From the NCBI GenBank assembly GCA_910574345.1, contig CAJSZV010000027.1, forward strand, positions 1 through 60,253: a stretch of DNA of 60,253 nucleotides, given 5' to 3'. The DNA comes from Clostridiaceae bacterium. GTDB lineage: Bacteria; Bacillota; Clostridia; Lachnospirales; Lachnospiraceae. The translations under genes and the position numbers were made by a program. Numbering within the stretch: the first letter of the stretch is position 1; the number at the start of each line of letters is the position of its first letter. Under the pieces are notes generated by a model. The model was not told the DNA's origin. It worked only from the letters and a program-made list of their open reading frames with translations, and did no database searches. This document shows positions 48,116 through 56,598 of this stretch, one piece after another.

Positions 48116-49174
48116 ATGAAAACATATGATTTTGACAGTCTGAAATTTGCAACAGAAGGGCTTTCTGGCGGTGCGTGTACCGTTATTCAGGATGATGTAG
48201 GGCTTCCGTCTTTTATGGTTCCGATCAATCAGCGCACAAATGCACAGCTTTTCGAGGGCGGATCACAGAAAACACATTCGGCCTTTATGGTGGATGATGT
48301 GGAGTATAAGCGCTTTTTTATCAGCAAATTTCTGAATTGCGTAATCAATGGCCGCGCGTATTCCTGGCCGCTGATGGATCCGAAAGCCGTTATCAATTAT
48401 GATGAATCTATGGCAGCATGTAACGCAAAGGGGAACGGCTGGCATTTAATGAGCATACCGGAAAGGGCCGTTATTGATCACCTGATTTATAAATCCGGTT
48501 TTGTTCCGCGCGGCAATACACAGTATGGACACAGCCACACGCACACATATGAAGCCGGAGAACAGACCGCGGACGAAAGCGACGGCAGCGGCGGCAGAAG
48601 GACAACCAGGACAGCGGCCGGATCAGGCCCCGCAACATGGTTCCATGACGGAACCAGGAACGGGATTGCGGATTGGGTTGGAAATGTCTGGAAATGGGCT
48701 TCCGGTATGCGTATAGTAAACGGAGAAATTCAGATCTTCGTTGGAAACCTGGCTGCAAGACAGGTAAGCGCCGCCCCTGAAAGCACGTACTGGAAAGCGA
48801 TCCTTCCTACTGGCGCCCTGGTAAATCCGGGAACGGCCGGAACGCTGAAATATACAAAGGATTTCAAGATCGCGACGGCGACAGGGGAAGCCGGTTCCAC
48901 GTATACGGCAAATTTCGGAAATATTACGGCCGCTTCCGGCGTAACCATTCCGGAAATCCTTTATGAATTACACCTTGCGCCGAAAGCTGGCGTTACACAC
49001 CAGGGCGCCTTCTGGATCAACAATGAGGGGGAGCGCTTGCCGCTCGTGGGTGCGAGTTACAGCAACGCTTCGAATTCCGGGCCGTCGGCGCTGAGTTTGG
49101 ACAACCCGCGTTCTTACGTGCACGCGAACATCGGCTTCTTTTCCGCTTTTATGGAATTGGAATCTGTAATCTGA
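48116..49174 (+). CDS. DGR-diversified lectin-fold protein 1 (tail-region target)
   Basis: 352 residues. The middle (KGNGWHLMSIPERAVIDHLI; GSGPATWFHDGTRNGIADWV; GNVWKWASGMRIVNG) is the C-type-lectin/formylglycine-enzyme-like fold. The C-terminus (LVGASYSNASNSGPSALSLD, on to NIGFFSAFMELESVI) is coded by VR1. Variable residues occupy the binding surface in known DGR proteins such as Mtd. In this place after the tail genes it is probably the receptor-binding tip. Confidence 0.93.
   Translation: MKTYDFDSLKFATEGLSGGACTVIQDDVGLPSFMVPINQRTNAQLFEGGSQKTHSAFMVDDVEYKRFFISKFLNCVINGRAYSWPLMDPKAVINYDESMAACNAKGNGWHLMSIPERAVIDHLIYKSGFVPRGNTQYGHSHTHTYEAGEQTADESDGSGGRRTTRTAAGSGPATWFHDGTRNGIADWVGNVWKWASGMRIVNGEIQIFVGNLAARQVSAAPESTYWKAILPTGALVNPGTAGTLKYTKDFKIATATGEAGSTYTANFGNITAASGVTIPEILYELHLAPKAGVTHQGAFWINNEGERLPLVGASYSNASNSGPSALSLDNPRSYVHANIGFFSAFMELESVI
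49034..49148 (+). repeat. DGR variable repeat 1 (VR1)
   Basis: 115 bases aligned without gaps to template 49699-49813. Eight differences, all at template adenines 49708, 49727, 49732, 49760, 49765, 49780, 49786 and 49789 (to C, G, G, G, G, T, C, G). Confidence 0.96.
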
Positions 49175-49210
49175 ATACTGTAATCTGTTTGGGGCCGCGA
49201 TAGCGGCCCC
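49160..49210 (+). promoter_or_regulatory. VR1 downstream homing element (spacer plus GATA hairpin)
   Basis: GGGGCCGC GATA GCGGCCCC (49191-49210), a perfect 8-bp stem with 4-base loop, begins 42 bases after VR1. CTGTAATCTGTTT precedes it, as at VR2. The shape equals the 8-bp stem with 4-base loop known from the Bordetella phage DGR. It may also end target transcription. Confidence 0.8.
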
Positions 49211-49244
49211 CTATGTTTTGGCATGACGAAAGGGAAATAAAGGA

Positions 49245-49673
49245 ATGGGCGGTTATCAAAGGCGGTATGACAATCAGCCGCGCGGGAATCCGGAAACGGA
49301 CGAAGGAAAAGAACAGAAAAGCGGATTGATCATATTGCAGAAATCGAAAGACCTTATGCAGTATCTTTATACTTCATGGGTAAAATATCCGCGGAGTGAA
49401 AAGCCCGGTTTTGTGGCGGATTATAAACAATGTCTTTTTCAATTCCTGATATACATTATCACGGCGCAGAAAAAGTATTTCAAGAAAACCACGCTTCAGG
49501 ACGCAGATGTGCAGCTGGAATTGTTGCGGCTTTTCAATCAGCTTTCCTATGACATGCACTTTATTGATGAAAAGCGTTACAAGCTGATTTCTGAAAGGTT
49601 GTGCGAAATTGGACGGCTACTCGGCGGCTGGATAAATTCGCAGAAAGAAACCAGCAAAACAACTGGAAAATAA
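49245..49673 (+). CDS. avd: DGR accessory protein Avd
   Basis: 142 residues. After a polar start, four amphipathic helices (GLIILQKSKDLMQYLYTSWV; GFVADYKQCLFQFLIYIITA; LQDADVQLELLRLFNQLSYD; YKLISERLCEIGRLLGGWIN) match Avd, the four-helix, ring-forming partner that binds the RT and template RNA. AAAGGA precedes ATG 49245. Place between target and template repeat is standard. Confidence 0.92.
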   Translation: MGGYQRRYDNQPRGNPETDEGKEQKSGLIILQKSKDLMQYLYTSWVKYPRSEKPGFVADYKQCLFQFLIYIITAQKKYFKKTTLQDADVQLELLRLFNQLSYDMHFIDEKRYKLISERLCEIGRLLGGWINSQKETSKTTGK

Positions 49674-49698
49674 TTTCCGGTGGGGATAGATCATTTAA

Positions 49699-49813
49699 CG
49701 CTTGCCGATCGTGGGTGCGAGTTACAACAACACTTCGAATTCCGGGCCGTCGGCGCTGAATTTGAACAACCCGCGTTCTAACGTGAACACGAACATCGGC
49801 TTCTTTTCCGCTT
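49699..49813 (+). repeat. DGR template repeat (TR)
   Basis: 115 bases, the invariant master for VR1 and VR2. AAC codons at the variable places can become many others when adenines are altered, without making stop codons. The spacer 49814-50084 to the RT gene has a strong hairpin (CCCCGC...GCGGGG, about 50030-50060), a likely part of the template RNA. Confidence 0.95.
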
Positions 49814-50084
49814 ACCTTTTTAGCCAGGAGGGAAATGTTTACGGACATTTTCACAGCGCAAGAAAAGGAAAGGGATCTATTCCCATTCCGGCCGACTGGC
49901 CGGATAAATTGACGTTGCTGTTAATGCAGTTAGTACCGATCATGCAGCTGGCTTATGGGCTGCATGGGAGGGCCTGAAGGGTGCAACGAACAGCGCCGCG
50001 CCGACGGCCGAAAGCCGCCAGCGCAGCCCCCGCAAAGCGCAAGCCCGCAAAAAGCGGGGGATTTTTAGAGAAAGGAAAAGGCTA

Positions 50085-51221
50085 TTGAAAACCTTTAATG
50101 TAACACATGAAGAAATAATAGATTTTGAAAATCTTTTGGAAGCGGACAAAAACGCTTCAAAAAGCAAGCATTACCGGGATGAAAACCTTGCATTTGCCGC
50201 GCATAAAAGCGACGAACTTATAAACCTACACAATGAACTGACCTATTTTCCGAAAGACGGGATTCCGGGAAATCCGTTGGAATCTGCATACCACGTCGGA
50301 AGATACCGGCGAAAGAAAATCTATGAGCCGAAACCGCGGATCATTATGGCGCTACAATACCGCGATCGCGTTGTACAGTGGGCGTATTATCAAAAATTAA
50401 ACCCGTTGTTTGACAGGCAGTACATAGAACATAGTTACGGGTGCAGAGTAGGCAAGGGAACCACAAGGGCGCGGGCGCAGCTACAATACTGGCTTCGCAT
50501 GGCGTCAAGGAGCGCTAAAAAGTGGTATGTGCTGAAGCTGGATATTGCAAAGTATTTTTATCGCGTGGATCATGAAATCCTGATGAAAATTCTATCTAAG
50601 CATATCAGGGATCCGCTGATCCTTCGGGATCTGTATAACCTGATAAATTGCGAGGATACAGCCTTCGGGCTTCCGGCTGGCGTCCAGCCTGAATTATGCG
50701 ATCGGGAAGAATGGCTTTATAACCGTGGTATGCCGATCGGGAACCTGACAAGCCAAATGTTTGCAAATATCTATCTGAATGAGTTGGATCAATTCTGCAA
50801 GCACGATTTACATATCCGGTATTATATCCGCTATATGGATGATATTATCATCCTATGGTCGGATAAAAACGAATTACACCAAATTCAGGCAGAGATTGAA
50901 AGATTCCTGGATGAAAAACTTCACCTGGAATTAAACAAGAAAACATGTATCCGCCCGGCCTGGCTGCCTGTTACGTTCGTAGGCGCACAGATCACGCCGA
51001 AAGCGATCCGCATGAGGAAAAGCACAAGGAAGCGCATGTTCCGCAGAATGAAATATATCCGCGGCCTGTTTGAAATCGGGAGGATCGCATTTGAAAAAGT
51101 AAATAATACCATGCAAAGCTATTTCGGGCTGATTGGAACCTTTACAGCCAGAAACCTTTTACGGAAAGTCATTGATGAATTTTCGTTTCGCATTATTAAG
51201 CATGACAATTCAACCGGGTAA
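50085..51221 (+). CDS. DGR reverse transcriptase
   Basis: 378 residues from TTG 50085, with AAAGGA ahead. Catalytic motifs: LDIAKYF (Asp153), RYMDDIIIL (YMDD 250-253), and GMPIGNLTSQ (216-224), the form with SQ that marks DGR RTs apart from group II intron or retroviral types. KPRIIMALQYRDRVVQW is also typical. It copies TR RNA with errors at A. Confidence 0.95.
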   Translation: MKTFNVTHEEIIDFENLLEADKNASKSKHYRDENLAFAAHKSDELINLHNELTYFPKDGIPGNPLESAYHVGRYRRKKIYEPKPRIIMALQYRDRVVQWAYYQKLNPLFDRQYIEHSYGCRVGKGTTRARAQLQYWLRMASRSAKKWYVLKLDIAKYFYRVDHEILMKILSKHIRDPLILRDLYNLINCEDTAFGLPAGVQPELCDREEWLYNRGMPIGNLTSQMFANIYLNELDQFCKHDLHIRYYIRYMDDIIILWSDKNELHQIQAEIERFLDEKLHLELNKKTCIRPAWLPVTFVGAQITPKAIRMRKSTRKRMFRRMKYIRGLFEIGRIAFEKVNNTMQSYFGLIGTFTARNLLRKVIDEFSFRIIKHDNSTG

Positions 51222-52257: not shown

Positions 52258-52288
52258 GCGGCCGCGCGGATGATGTGCGGTCGCTTTT
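52258..52288 (+). terminator. hairpin ahead of the endolysin gene
   Basis: GCGGCCGC gcggatgatgt GCGGTCGC then TTTT; one G-U pair. It may attenuate transcription into the endolysin gene. Confidence 0.5.
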
Positions 52289-52310
52289 CTCTATGAAAGG
52301 ATCTGATTTT

Positions 52311-53606
52311 ATGTCTAATAGCGCATTAGTAAATTACACACGGATTTCACCGAACAAAAACAGCCCCCGCAATCATGCAATAGATACAATTTCAATTCAT
52401 TGTGTCGTGGGGCAGTTATCCGTTGAAACAATCGGGAATGTGTTTGCGCCGTCGTCGGCCGGGTGCAGCGCCAACTATGGGATCGGCGCCGACGGCCGGA
52501 TCGGGATGTATGTTGAAGAAAAAGATCGTTCCTGGTGTACATCCAGCGGGGCGAACGACAACCGCGCAATCACGATCGAATGTGCCAGCGATACCACTTC
52601 ACCGTATGCCGTGAATGATAAGGTATACAAGGCCCTGATCAATCTGTTAGTGGATATTTGCCAGCGAAACGGCATTAAATCCCTGAAATGGCAAGCAAAC
52701 AAGGCCCTGATCGGCCAGGTAGACAAGCAGAACATGACCGTTCATCGGTGGTTTGCGAACAAAGCGTGTCCTGGGGATTATCTTTACAATTTGCACGGGC
52801 AGATCGCCGCAGAAGTCAATAAACGGCTGGGGGTATCATCCGGAGCCGCCGCGCCAGCTGCAAAACCGCAGCAGACCAGCAAAACCACAGCAGAAAAAAC
52901 AATCTGGAATTTTCTTTCCGGAAAAGGGCTGAATGATTTTGCCGTGGCCGGTATCATGGGGAATCTGTTTGCAGAAAGCGCCCTGAATCCGCGCAACCTT
53001 CAGAACAGTTATGAAAAAAAGCTGAATATGACGGATGATAAATACACGGCCGCAGTAGATAACGGAACCTATAACAATTTTGTGAGGGATTCCGCGGGCT
53101 ATGGCCTGGCACAGTGGACATATTGGAGCCGGAAACAGGGGCTTCTTGACCACGCCAGGAAACAAGGGGCTTCCATCGGGGATCTGAATATGCAGCTTTC
53201 TTTCTTGTGGAAAGAATTGTCCGGATATACAGCCGTAATGAACACGCTAAAAACGGCGGCTTCCGTCCTGGCGGCGTCAAACGCCATTCTAACGGGTTTT
53301 GAAAAGCCAGCGGATCAAAGTGCAGCCGTACAGAAAAAGCGGGCTGAATACGGCCAGAAATACTATGACAAGTACGTAAAGAAAGCAGCCGCAGCCCCGG
53401 CAGCATTTACGCCGTATCTGGTAAAGGTGACAGCAACAGACCTTCGGATCCGCAAAGGCCCCGGAACAAATACTTCTATTGTCCGTTATTGTCCGCCCGG
53501 CGCCTATACAATCATTGCAGAATCGGACGGCCCCGGCGCTTCAAAATGGGGCCAGTTGAAAAGCAAGGAGGGCTGGATCGCGCTGGACTATGCAAAGAAA
53601 ATATAA
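52311..53606 (+). CDS. endolysin: amidase, lysozyme-like domain, SH3
   Basis: 431 residues from ATG 52311, behind AAAGGA. Domain 1, amidase_2: ISIHCVVGQLSVETIGN (His30), SANYGIGADGRIGMYVEEKD, HRWFANKACPGDYL. Domain 2, about 185-320: AVAGIMGNLFAESALNPRNL, YGLAQWTYWSRKQGL, a phage tail-lysozyme/NlpC-unlike lysozyme module with Glu in AESAL. Domain 3: SH3 (VTATDLRIRKGPGTNTSIVR). It cuts peptidoglycan at two bonds. Confidence 0.92.
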   Translation: MSNSALVNYTRISPNKNSPRNHAIDTISIHCVVGQLSVETIGNVFAPSSAGCSANYGIGADGRIGMYVEEKDRSWCTSSGANDNRAITIECASDTTSPYAVNDKVYKALINLLVDICQRNGIKSLKWQANKALIGQVDKQNMTVHRWFANKACPGDYLYNLHGQIAAEVNKRLGVSSGAAAPAAKPQQTSKTTAEKTIWNFLSGKGLNDFAVAGIMGNLFAESALNPRNLQNSYEKKLNMTDDKYTAAVDNGTYNNFVRDSAGYGLAQWTYWSRKQGLLDHARKQGASIGDLNMQLSFLWKELSGYTAVMNTLKTAASVLAASNAILTGFEKPADQSAAVQKKRAEYGQKYYDKYVKKAAAAPAAFTPYLVKVTATDLRIRKGPGTNTSIVRYCPPGAYTIIAESDGPGASKWGQLKSKEGWIALDYAKKI

Positions 53607-53665
53607 TTCGTGTATAATGTAATTTAATTAAATTATAAAGTAAATATAACGATTACAAAATACAC

Positions 53666-53695
53666 TTGACAGTTTTCTATAAAGTGTGATACAAT
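53666..53695 (+). promoter_or_regulatory. strong promoter of the repeat RNA
   Basis: TTGACA 53666-53671, an 18-base spacer, TACAAT 53690-53695. Start expected near 53702. AT-rich palindromic DNA (TAATTTAATTAAATTA, about 53618) lies just upstream. No ribosome binding site with a credible frame follows. Confidence 0.8.
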
Positions 53696-53701
53696 GGCGG
53701 C

Positions 53702-54160
53702 CAGAGGGGGTTATAAAGGGGGTGCGGGAAAAGCGGCATTTCATAACGCGCCAGGCGCCCATATAGCCGCCTTTTTCGTTTCCTGGATAAAATCCCCGCT
53801 TGCGTCCGTAAAATGCTGCTATGGGGCGAATAGAGCGCCCACGCGGGCAGATATGGGCGGCGCCCGTCCAGCTTGCTTCCTGAATACCATTCAGAACGCG
53901 CCAGGCGCCCCGTGTAGCCGTTTTAATGCCTTGCATGATAAAATACCCACATGGAGAAGAAAAGCCGTCCACGGGGTAAATAACGCGCTTGTACGGCGTC
54001 ATATGCTGGGGCCGTCTGCCTGGACGGTTCCGGAAATGCCGTCCAGAACGCGCCAGACGCCCCATAAAGCCGTTTTATTTACTTACACAATAAAATCCCT
54101 ATGCAGATTCCTAAAATGCCGATATGGGGCAATACGGGCTTTCTGCATAGGGATTTTTTA
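53702..54160 (+). ncRNA. three-module repeat noncoding RNA
   Basis: About 455 nt between promoter and terminator. The core AACGCGCCAGGCGCCC occurs at 53745 and 53895, and as AACGCGCCAGACGCCC at 54047: periods 150 and 152. Each core is followed by AGCCG, a U-rich piece, ATAAAAT(C/A)CCC and a GGGG...AATA segment. Just ahead of cores 2 and 3 stand hairpins CTGAAT/ATTCAG (53880-53894) and CTGGACGG/CCGTCCAG (54020-54046): same place, different bases, so pairing is conserved. GCCGT/ACGGC (53964, 53993) is another stem. Plus-strand frames are short or lack ribosome sites. It may be a large phage RNA of the ROOL/GOLLD type or something new. Confidence 0.75.
54094..54159 (+). terminator. terminator of the repeat RNA
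   Basis: AATCCCTATGCAGA (54094-54107) pairs with TCTGCATAGGGATT (54142-54155), a 14-bp stem with a structured loop, and TTTTTT follows. It also lies over the stop codon of the converging gene at 54158. Confidence 0.85.
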
Positions 54161-54469
54161 TTTTGCTGGCTTGTATGTGTATTCCGTTCCGTTTTCAGCG
54201 GCGGTTATAGTATCAAGCTGATTTTTAAAACATCCATTTTCGCCTATCTTGCGGGCCTTGCGTTCCGCTTCCGCCTGGCTTCTGGCTTTTACATTCAGCC
54301 ATTGAAAAGGATTCCCGGTTTCGTCGTTTATGGTGATTTTATATAACTTGTGTTCCGTCCTTTTCAGCTTTCCGCTTCCGTTGCATGAATAACAGGGGCC
54401 GGCGGCGCCGGAACGGTAGATATATTTTCCGGAACCGTTACACTTTCCACACATAACTATTTCTGACAT
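54158..54469 (-). CDS. DnaJ-type zinc-finger protein
   Basis: 103 residues. Two CxxCxGxG units, CGKCNGSG and CYSCNGSG, form a DnaJ-like zinc finger, followed by a small domain (YKITINDETGNPFQWLNVKA, RSQAEAERKARKIGE). It has no J domain. On the minus strand it converges with the repeat RNA. Part of the right-end accessory cassette. Confidence 0.75.
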   Translation of the reverse strand: MSEIVMCGKCNGSGKYIYRSGAAGPCYSCNGSGKLKRTEHKLYKITINDETGNPFQWLNVKARSQAEAERKARKIGENGCFKNQLDTITAAENGTEYTYKPAK

Positions 54470-55524: not shown

Positions 55525-56067
55525 GTGAAGCATGGATTAAGTAAGACTCGTTTATATAGTATCTATTCGGGAATGAAACAACGCTGTTACAATCCAAATA
55601 ACCAGCATTTCTCTTTATATGGCGGTAAGGGAATAACCATTTGTGATGAATGGATGGGAGATAATGGCTTACAAAACTTTTTTGAATGGTCTTTAAGTCA
55701 TGGTTATAATGACAACCTAACTATTGATCGCATAGACAGCAATAAGGGGTATTCTCCTGAAAACTGCCAGTGGATAACCGCTTCGCTAAATAGTTATCGT
55801 GTAAATTCGGATGATAAATATTTTTCAACCTATACCGGAGAAGCCTTATTTTCAGGTAATGAGCAAATTTTAATTAAAATAAGGAAAATAATGCTAGAAA
55901 CTAAGATAACTCAAAGAGAAATAGCTGAAAAACTCGGTATAAAACCGCAAGGACTTACGAAAATGCTAAATAAGAAAAACTTCGGTTTTGAGGACGCAAA
56001 AAAAATATTGGATACTATGGGTTATAATTTAGTTGTTGACTTCGAACAATGCACGGAGGAAAATTAA
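55525..56067 (+). CDS. AP2/HNH-like domain fused to HTH, copy 1
   Basis: 180 residues from GTG 55525. The first about 95 (HGLSKTRLYSIYSGMKQRCY; LYGGKGITICDEW; LTIDRIDSNKGYSPENCQWI) form a phage module related to AP2/homing-nuclease DNA-binding domains; no complete HNH triad is seen. The C-terminal about 60 (REIAEKLGIKPQGLTKMLNK) is an HTH of the kind at 55298. DNA of the first module is nearly identical to copy 2. Confidence 0.7.
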   Translation: MKHGLSKTRLYSIYSGMKQRCYNPNNQHFSLYGGKGITICDEWMGDNGLQNFFEWSLSHGYNDNLTIDRIDSNKGYSPENCQWITASLNSYRVNSDDKYFSTYTGEALFSGNEQILIKIRKIMLETKITQREIAEKLGIKPQGLTKMLNKKNFGFEDAKKILDTMGYNLVVDFEQCTEEN

Positions 56068-56070
56068 AAC

Positions 56071-56598
56071 ATGAAACACGAACTAAGCAAAACCCGGTTA
56101 TATAGTATCTATTCCGGCATGAAGCAACGCTGTTATAATCCTAATAGCCAGCATTTCCCTTTATATGGTGGTAAGGGAATAACCATTTGTGATGAATGGA
56201 TGGGAGATAATGGCTTGCAAAACTTTTTTGAATGGTCTTTATGTCATGGATATAATGACAACCTAACTATTGATCGCATAGACAGCAATAAGGGGTATTC
56301 TCCTGAAAATTGCCAGTGGATAACATTGTCTCTGAATAGTAGTAGGGCGCATATAGGTGATGTGGAAAATGGTTCTATGAAAATTCTTACATCGGAAAAG
56401 ATTAGATTTCTTATAAATCGCCGACAGATTACAATGTATTCCGTGGCAGAAGAAACAGGTCAGACACGGCAGAATTTTTCTAACAAGCTGAAGCGCGGGG
56501 ATTTTAAAGAATCAGAATTACGCGCGATCGCTGAAGCTGTCGGGTGTGAACTGGTAATTTCTTTTGTGGATAAAGAAACAGGGGAAGAAGTTGGATGA
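56071..56598 (+). CDS. AP2/HNH-like domain fused to HTH, copy 2
   Basis: 175 residues, 3 bases after copy 1. The first about 90 residues repeat copy 1 with few changes (HELSKTRLYSIYSGMKQRCY). The C-terminus differs: ITMYSVAEETGQTRQNFSNK, LKRGDFKESELRAIAEAVGC, a different HTH. So a DNA-binding head was duplicated and joined to a new HTH. It is the last phage gene before attR. Confidence 0.7.
   Translation: MKHELSKTRLYSIYSGMKQRCYNPNSQHFPLYGGKGITICDEWMGDNGLQNFFEWSLCHGYNDNLTIDRIDSNKGYSPENCQWITLSLNSSRAHIGDVENGSMKILTSEKIRFLINRRQITMYSVAEETGQTRQNFSNKLKRGDFKESELRAIAEAVGCELVISFVDKETGEEVG

Follow-up and report, generated by a model that had tools for sequence, protein, structure and literature searches.

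A tandem array of three structured repeats in a putative prophage as a candidate modular non-coding RNA gene with relatives in other viral lineages

Downstream of a holin-like gene and an endolysin gene of a putative prophage, a sigma-A-type promoter is followed by three diverged repeats and a terminator-like inverted repeat (positions 53666-54164), which raises the question of what kind of gene or site such an array represents. The window analyzed here, meaning the whole stretch of 60,253 nt, is an entire contig, and we therefore refer to the phage only as a putative prophage. An initial annotation, made from the letters alone, had suggested an RNA of repeated modules.

The same annotation placed the repeats between a strong promoter and a strong terminator, in agreement with the near-consensus hexamers on one side and the perfect inverted repeat with its T-rich tail on the other (Table 1). 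The number of promoter-like sites is in itself uninformative (2 sites in the promoter scan versus 1.7 in shuffles). A stretch of 52 nt from the promoter into the leader (TTGACA to TTATAAA) is identical in the window phage and two close relatives, L014 and L148. The left arm of the terminator-like inverted repeat falls inside the apical loop of module 3, and a terminator scan that allowed loops of 3-8 listed none for the array.

The three repeats share the core AACGCGCCAG(G/A)CGCCC, starting at positions 53745, 53895 and 54047. The spacing of 150 and 152 nt matches the initial description of three divergent repeats with a common core. In the 5.6-Mb host assembly, exact matches to the core are confined to these three sites. 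With up to three mismatches it occurs at 41 places in the host genome, the next best having two mismatches, as compared to 43 places for a reversed control pattern. Four matches were counted in the window versus 0.59 in shuffles, with one of 100 shuffles reaching four. Identity between the repeats amounts to 67-72% over a 39-nt block and 86-95% over the 21-nt core, and units 2 and 3 are 78% identical over 65 nt.

Table 1. Features of the array and its surroundings (positions in the window)
Feature	Position	Strand	Description
Endolysin gene, upstream	52275..53606	+	amidase and phage lysozyme domains
Promoter-like sequence	53666..53695	+	-35 TTGACA, 18-nt spacer, -10 TACAAT, TG upstream; consensus 11/12
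Module 1	53737..53860	+	core AACGCGCCAGGCGCCC 53745-53760; family hairpin 53755-53837
Module 1 motif GGGGCGAATA	53823-53832	+	one change versus family motif
Pre-core hairpin, unit 2 (CTGAAT/ATTCAG)	53880..53894	+	local to the window group, not a family feature
Module 2	53887..54016	+	core 53895-53910; family hairpin 53907-53987
Module 2 motif GGGGTAAATA	53973-53982	+	one change versus family motif
Pre-core hairpin, unit 3 (CTGGACGG/CCGTCCAG)	54020..54046	+	by eye
Module 3	54039..54157	+	core AACGCGCCAGACGCCC 54047-54062; family hairpin 54059-54139
Terminator-like inverted repeat	54092..54164	+	perfect 16-nt inverted repeat 54092-54107/54142-54157 (16/16 pairs), T-rich tail
Module 3 motif GGGGCAATA	54126-54134	+	one base missing versus family motif
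Convergent small gene past terminator	54158..54469	-	L014 copy 95% identical; L148 DNA there differs

Two other parts of the window were noted. Positions 48116-51221 resemble a diversity-generating retroelement, with a target gene (48116-49174) and a reverse transcriptase gene (50085-51221; RVT_1, phrog_1423); translated ORFs, read by eye, suggest a template-like copy between them at about 49700-49850. The adjacent ORFs 55525-56067 and 56071-56598, which have a weak homing-endonuclease-like PADLOC match, are nearly identical in their N-terminal halves and different in their C-terminal halves (by eye).

The array was recovered in L014 by a scan of viral contigs and in L148 (on a roughly 140-kb contig of Clostridiaceae bacterium 1XD21-29) by a scan of species genomes. 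All three phages have the same order, in which the end of the lysin gene is followed by the promoter, three units and the terminator. The genes downstream of the array are small and convergent, and past the terminator the L148 sequence diverges. Over the array, L014 and the window are 93% identical, whereas different units are only about 70-78% identical to each other, indicating that the triplication predates the split of these phages. The core pattern gave 40 viral stretches, and among the BLAST matches listed a long match was found only in L014; a longer core pattern gave at least 118 stretches in species genomes, with only L148 above 20 bits. Among lysin relatives (80 of 237 kept), model R1 found no array apart from the L014 contig. 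Its matches in genus genomes (L134, L135) were rejected by eye as apparent chance matches within genes.

Comparison of the three phages also bears on the coding potential. A long plus-strand frame comprises 175 aa in the window and 160 aa in L148 and is broken in L014 (47 aa); between the window and L148 it retains 45% amino acid identity at about 89% DNA identity. From promoter to terminator, the window differs from L014 by 29 mismatches and indel runs of 4, 1, 1 and 1 nt, and from L148 by 55 mismatches and indel runs of 2, 1, 1 and 1 nt. Indel runs in the array measure 1, 2, 4 and 6 nt, and those whose length is not a multiple of three shift the reading frames. The two long ORFs had no match to a Pfam or PHROG family. 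Given the frame breaks and the missing family match, we dropped the protein-coding reading, as the initial annotation had done in finding no credible protein frame. The persistence of the long frame in L148 is weak counter-evidence to the non-coding reading.

The structural argument had originally been built on a hairpin directly before the core, said to differ in bases and to pair fully in units 2 and 3. This hairpin is present in both units and in L014 and absent from unit 1; in L148, by eye, about half of the unit 3 pairs are lost and unit 2 is bulged. Since it is poorly kept in relatives, we did not use it as evidence. The view of a non-coding, repeated and structured RNA stood, while the named hairpin did not; the covarying stem sits within the repeat and emerged only from comparison with other phages. 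Folding of the whole array yielded a z of -4.4 against shuffles (-3.1 for the reverse strand). We attribute this largely to the terminator, because modules 1 and 2 alone gave z-values of +0.9 and 0.0 and module 3 gave -4.5. Two structural ideas were discarded. One was a pseudoknot between GCCCC of the core and GGGGC enclosing a UUUUA/UAAAA hairpin, instead of which distant relatives gave one continuous hairpin. The other paired the apical loop with what lies downstream of it, an interaction strong in module 3 alone, where it is the terminator (single-base shuffles).

Those distant relatives were reached with a covariance model, R2, built solely from the nine units of the window, L014 and L148 and applied to 397 family genomes. 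At E ≤ 0.1 it matched two genomes, its own and G041. The latter carries two R2 units about 200 nt apart (28.2 and 23.6 bits) and a third seen by eye (18.2 bits with model R3); the first match alone, with E 0.0185 in 1 of 397 genomes, would not reach significance. The G041 contig (9706 nt) is phage-plasmid-like by eye, with ParA-, replication-initiator-, lysin- and tail-fibre-like ORFs. A 294-aa PD-(D/E)XK transposase-like ORF (L262 6986-7870, by eye) adjoins the array on this contig. Alignment with G041 brought out a shared 3' half, TAAAAT-N8-GGGGCAAAT.

The corresponding pattern, TAAAATN8GGGGCAAATR, matched 71 viral stretches, of which 70 lie outside L014 and form 45 clusters. A TT[TC]T[AT] box, defined after the sequences had been seen, occurs 33-35 nt upstream in 9 of the 45 clusters as compared to 1.21 after single-base shuffling (none of 2000 shuffles reached 9), and other windows of equal width contain it in 0.52 clusters on average and in 4 at most. 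L295 is probably a chance match. The other eight clusters are L264, L267, L268, L270, L276, L290 (with L319 and L325), L299 and L320; as L290 and L299 both adjoin integrases (by eye), we count them as about seven lineages. Single-copy relatives thus appear to exist in about seven other viral lineages, and L315, L317 and L281 are likely relatives as well. Outside its training set, R3 scored L299, L267, L317 and L315 at 39.5, 38.6, 36.0 and 31.5 bits, scores that are partly supplied by the search pattern. In the integrase-linked group, the surroundings of the element are nearly identical (L325 11152-11233, L319 2948-3029), with one local cluster of change: by eye, seven bases that flank CGTTTAAAAT are not the same.

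Searches of genomes with R3 added few members. L335, which was found by the model and carries AUCC where others have GGGGC, and L336, whose neighbors, by eye, resemble host or plasmid genes more than phage genes, have E-values below 1e-4, where 0.04 matches are expected over 397 genomes (E-values being rough). Seven of the 397 family genomes matched at E ≤ 0.01, including the own genome and G041, with about 4 expected by chance, and the number of matches at E 0.002-0.01 is close to that expectation. In the phylum sample, 3 of 398 genomes matched at E ≤ 0.003, namely the own genome, L346 (1501-1582, 40.6 bits, without the CAAATA motif) and L347, which was rejected as a family member since it looks like a different palindrome. 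Repeated palindromes GGGCCTTTGTAGGGCAATTTT in L347 (1380-1720; G588 contig 114) probably constitute a separate repeat family. The order sample returned the own genome only (1 of 39), and the genus sample (2 of 26) the own genome and one 32-bit match. The exact pattern was found in 2 of 397 family genomes, as was a reversed control pattern, so that G286 is probably a chance match. By blastn, the array had only short matches in annotated phages (E 0.2-0.6), and a search of plasmids gave none. With the flanks of L264, the lysin genes were matched and the element was not among the matches listed (best 8 of 11), and pieces of L270, L325 and G041 gave no match.

The family hairpin consists of a 19-position stem, an apical segment of 33-34 nt and a 3' end of the form TAAAAT-N8-GGGGCAAATA. 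We scored covariation in a fixed register that sets the 19 positions of the 5' arm opposite the 19 of the 3' arm. In 15 rows (leaving out p1, q1 and d3) the score was 0.219 as compared to at most 0.125 for slid registers, and 1 of 500 shuffles reached it. With ten rows, one per lineage, it rose to 0.327 versus at most 0.182 (0 of 500 shuffles), and 75.8% of the stem cells pair. Columns 6-68, for instance, contain A-U four times, G-C three times and U-A once, and columns 11-63 G-C five times and U-A four times. The ten rows were not chosen blindly: six were picked by eye from pattern matches and two came via R3, and the more poorly paired L267 (6 of 14 positions) and L299 (5 of 14) are excluded, as are L290, L319, L315, L317 and L281. 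RNAalifold recovered most of the same hairpin (13 pairs) from these rows unprompted. A nearly selection-free comparison used the nine box clusters, which were chosen by box offset alone: the 5' and 3' arms of the same cluster pair at 8.33 of 14 outer positions versus 7.18 for arms of different clusters, and the sum was reached by 206 of 20000 permutations (about P = 0.01). On this basis, the alignments moderately support a covarying stem across independent lineages. The window units form 12, 13 and 16 of the 19 pairs. By eye, the stem is seen in the minimum-free-energy fold of 7 of 16 sequences (module 2, L264, L270, L276, L317, L320 and L336); z falls below -2 in 7 of the 16 folded sequences, three of them module-3 units dominated by the terminator.

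Which strand carries the function is less clear from the hairpin itself. G-U and A-C cells number 24 versus 9, where the column make-up predicts 26.6 versus 13.3, and this excess therefore does not settle the strand. The hairpin is also palindromic enough that several members receive an R3 score on their other strand as well (34.7 bits in the window). The plus strand is favored by the promoter and the terminator, whereas the argument from the conserved strand is weakened, as the pattern by which most relatives were recovered fixes TAAAAT and GGGGCAAAT on that strand, so that its conservation is partly built in. It is improbable, in our estimate, that the imperfect palindrome is instead read as duplex or single-stranded DNA in recombination, attachment, replication or partition. 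The scoring of both strands would fit such a site, as would the near symmetry of the L336 arms (about 29 nt) and several neighborhoods, both seen by eye. In L325 a tyrosine-integrase-like ORF begins within the element, which is also antisense to a small ORF; the weaker match L346 lies directly 3' of such an integrase ORF; in L337 the element lies about 165 nt before a serine-recombinase-like ORF; and replication-gene-like ORFs are close to the elements of G041 and of L267, the latter lying past a replication-initiator-like gene. Most members, however, do not adjoin a recombinase, the signals flanking the window array have the same sense, and the stem contains many U-G pairs in the plus sense, though no more than the column make-up predicts.

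Other neighborhoods, again judged by eye, resemble that of the window. In L264 and L270 the element lies directly past the lysin gene and ahead of a terminator-like hairpin, terminator-like hairpins also follow it in L268, L320 and L315, and in L268, L276 and L320 it is located past terminase-small-subunit-like genes or small ORFs beside them. As ORFs past the element mostly run the other way, it could be a cis-acting 3'-end element, i.e., a hairpin before the terminators of converging operons that governs read-through or the stability of 3' ends, with the window copy having merely acquired its own promoter. We regard this as unlikely, given the conserved promoter and the three copies of the window array and the position of the L281 element between co-directional genes.

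All three window units carry a lesion in GGGGCAAATA (A to G, C to T and one lost base), and with one change in every unit the window array may be decaying and losing function. We consider it improbable that the array is merely the functionless remnant of a repeated or mobile sequence, perhaps of an antisense coding sequence. The damage to the window motifs would fit such a remnant, as would the loss of stem pairs in some units and the likeness, by eye, between module 1 read on the minus strand and the small antisense ORF of the L325 group. This reading is at odds with the promoter-to-leader stretch kept identical in three phages, with GGGGCAAAT undamaged in all six units of the relatives L014 and L148 and with covariation across lineages.

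The near-constant size of the hairpin (81-83 nt between hand-chosen ends in 14 of 17 members), the conserved CAAAUA flank, the scattering across phages and the tandem arrays would also suit a self-cleaving or self-processing RNA with conserved unpaired bases, whose tandem copies are cut to monomers. We consider this very unlikely, as Rfam models of known self-cleaving ribozymes had no match in the window array at E up to 10 and the strongest conservation lies on a paired strand.

We propose, at a probability of roughly 0.36, that the array is a multi-module non-coding RNA gene of a temperate phage, with the tandem modules serving in trans as a binder with several sites. Transcription from the dedicated promoter would begin just after 53695 and run to about 54160, yielding an RNA of about 460 nt with three modules of one structured RNA family, each a hairpin of near-constant size ending in UAAAAU-N8-GGGGCAAAUA. 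The 3' strand and flank may be what a protein or a second RNA recognizes. Single-copy relatives could serve as 3'-end or stand-alone regulatory RNAs, and the tandem form as a decoy, sponge or regulatory RNA. From the occurrence in threes in two groups, the dedicated promoter in one of them and the conserved end flank, we infer a trans-acting RNA with more than one binding site. A wider reading, which we hold to be doubtful, is that of a new class of modular phage RNAs, single at operon ends and triple in dedicated trans-acting RNA genes; the triple form, seen in no fewer than two groups (that of the window and G041), might, for example, titrate an RNA or an RNA-binding protein of the host in lysogeny or at lysis. 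To our knowledge, the large structured RNAs described from phages are few, and no function has been assigned to ROOL or GOLLD. If the proposal is true, a compact modular phage RNA with natural single- and triple-copy forms would be added to them. As promoter and terminator suggest the ends of the RNA and the conserved bases can be mutated singly, its function is directly testable in a lysogen.

A covariance search against Rfam and phage genomes had been proposed at the outset. A covariance model led to the G041 array and a DNA pattern to the single-copy relatives in other phages; Rfam 15 had no match at the gathering threshold in the window and none at E up to 10 in 53550-54250. We found no account of the array or its family in open-access PMC text or Rfam 15, and with no Rfam, Pfam or PHROG match the RNA is plausibly undescribed, as first suggested. 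An excerpt of one paper describes ROOL and GOLLD as structured non-coding RNAs of phages and prophages whose function is not known, single large RNAs often near tRNA islands, with 659 nt for one ROOL and above 800 nt for many GOLLD (PMC12286853). The array would likewise be a candidate structured non-coding phage RNA of unassigned role, yet it differs from the RNAs of that excerpt in comprising three repeats of about 150 nt, about 460 nt in all, rather than a single large RNA. No tRNA gene is present in the window, and neither the window nor 53550-54250 (E up to 10) was matched by the ROOL or GOLLD models, in line with the initial view that it is neither.

Excerpts of a second paper describe type III antitoxin RNAs (ToxI, CptI, TenpI), with repeats of 33-50 nt and a toxin gene following the RNA, and the phage-encoded RCd22 with two copies of the abiF motif RF03085 (PMC12373285). 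As described there, these resemble the array in that structured RNA modules are repeated and accompanied by a promoter and a terminator. The spacing of 150 and 152 nt, however, far exceeds 33-50 nt, and a convergent gene follows the array instead of a same-strand toxin gene. The abiF motif model had no match in the window or the array, and no type III toxin model was among the PADLOC matches listed for ten window proteins, which are mainly to reverse-transcriptase models (for the reverse transcriptase itself, the best 25 of 77), with weak helix-turn-helix-region and homing-endonuclease matches besides. We conclude that the array lacks defining features of ROOL, GOLLD and type III antitoxin RNAs. 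As regards a MITE or other inserted repeat, which would have near-identical terminal inverted repeats and a target duplication, the hairpin arms were seen to differ between lineages and to covary.

Two further systems are similar by description. HK022 put is a phage hairpin antitermination RNA that acts early and upstream; the array resembles it as a phage hairpin RNA possibly acting on transcription, whereas its relatives sit at the ends of units. CsrB/RsmY-type RNAs carry several copies of one protein-binding motif on one RNA and thereby sequester the protein. We prefer this analogy for how the array might act, on the grounds of copy number rather than likeness in sequence or partner.
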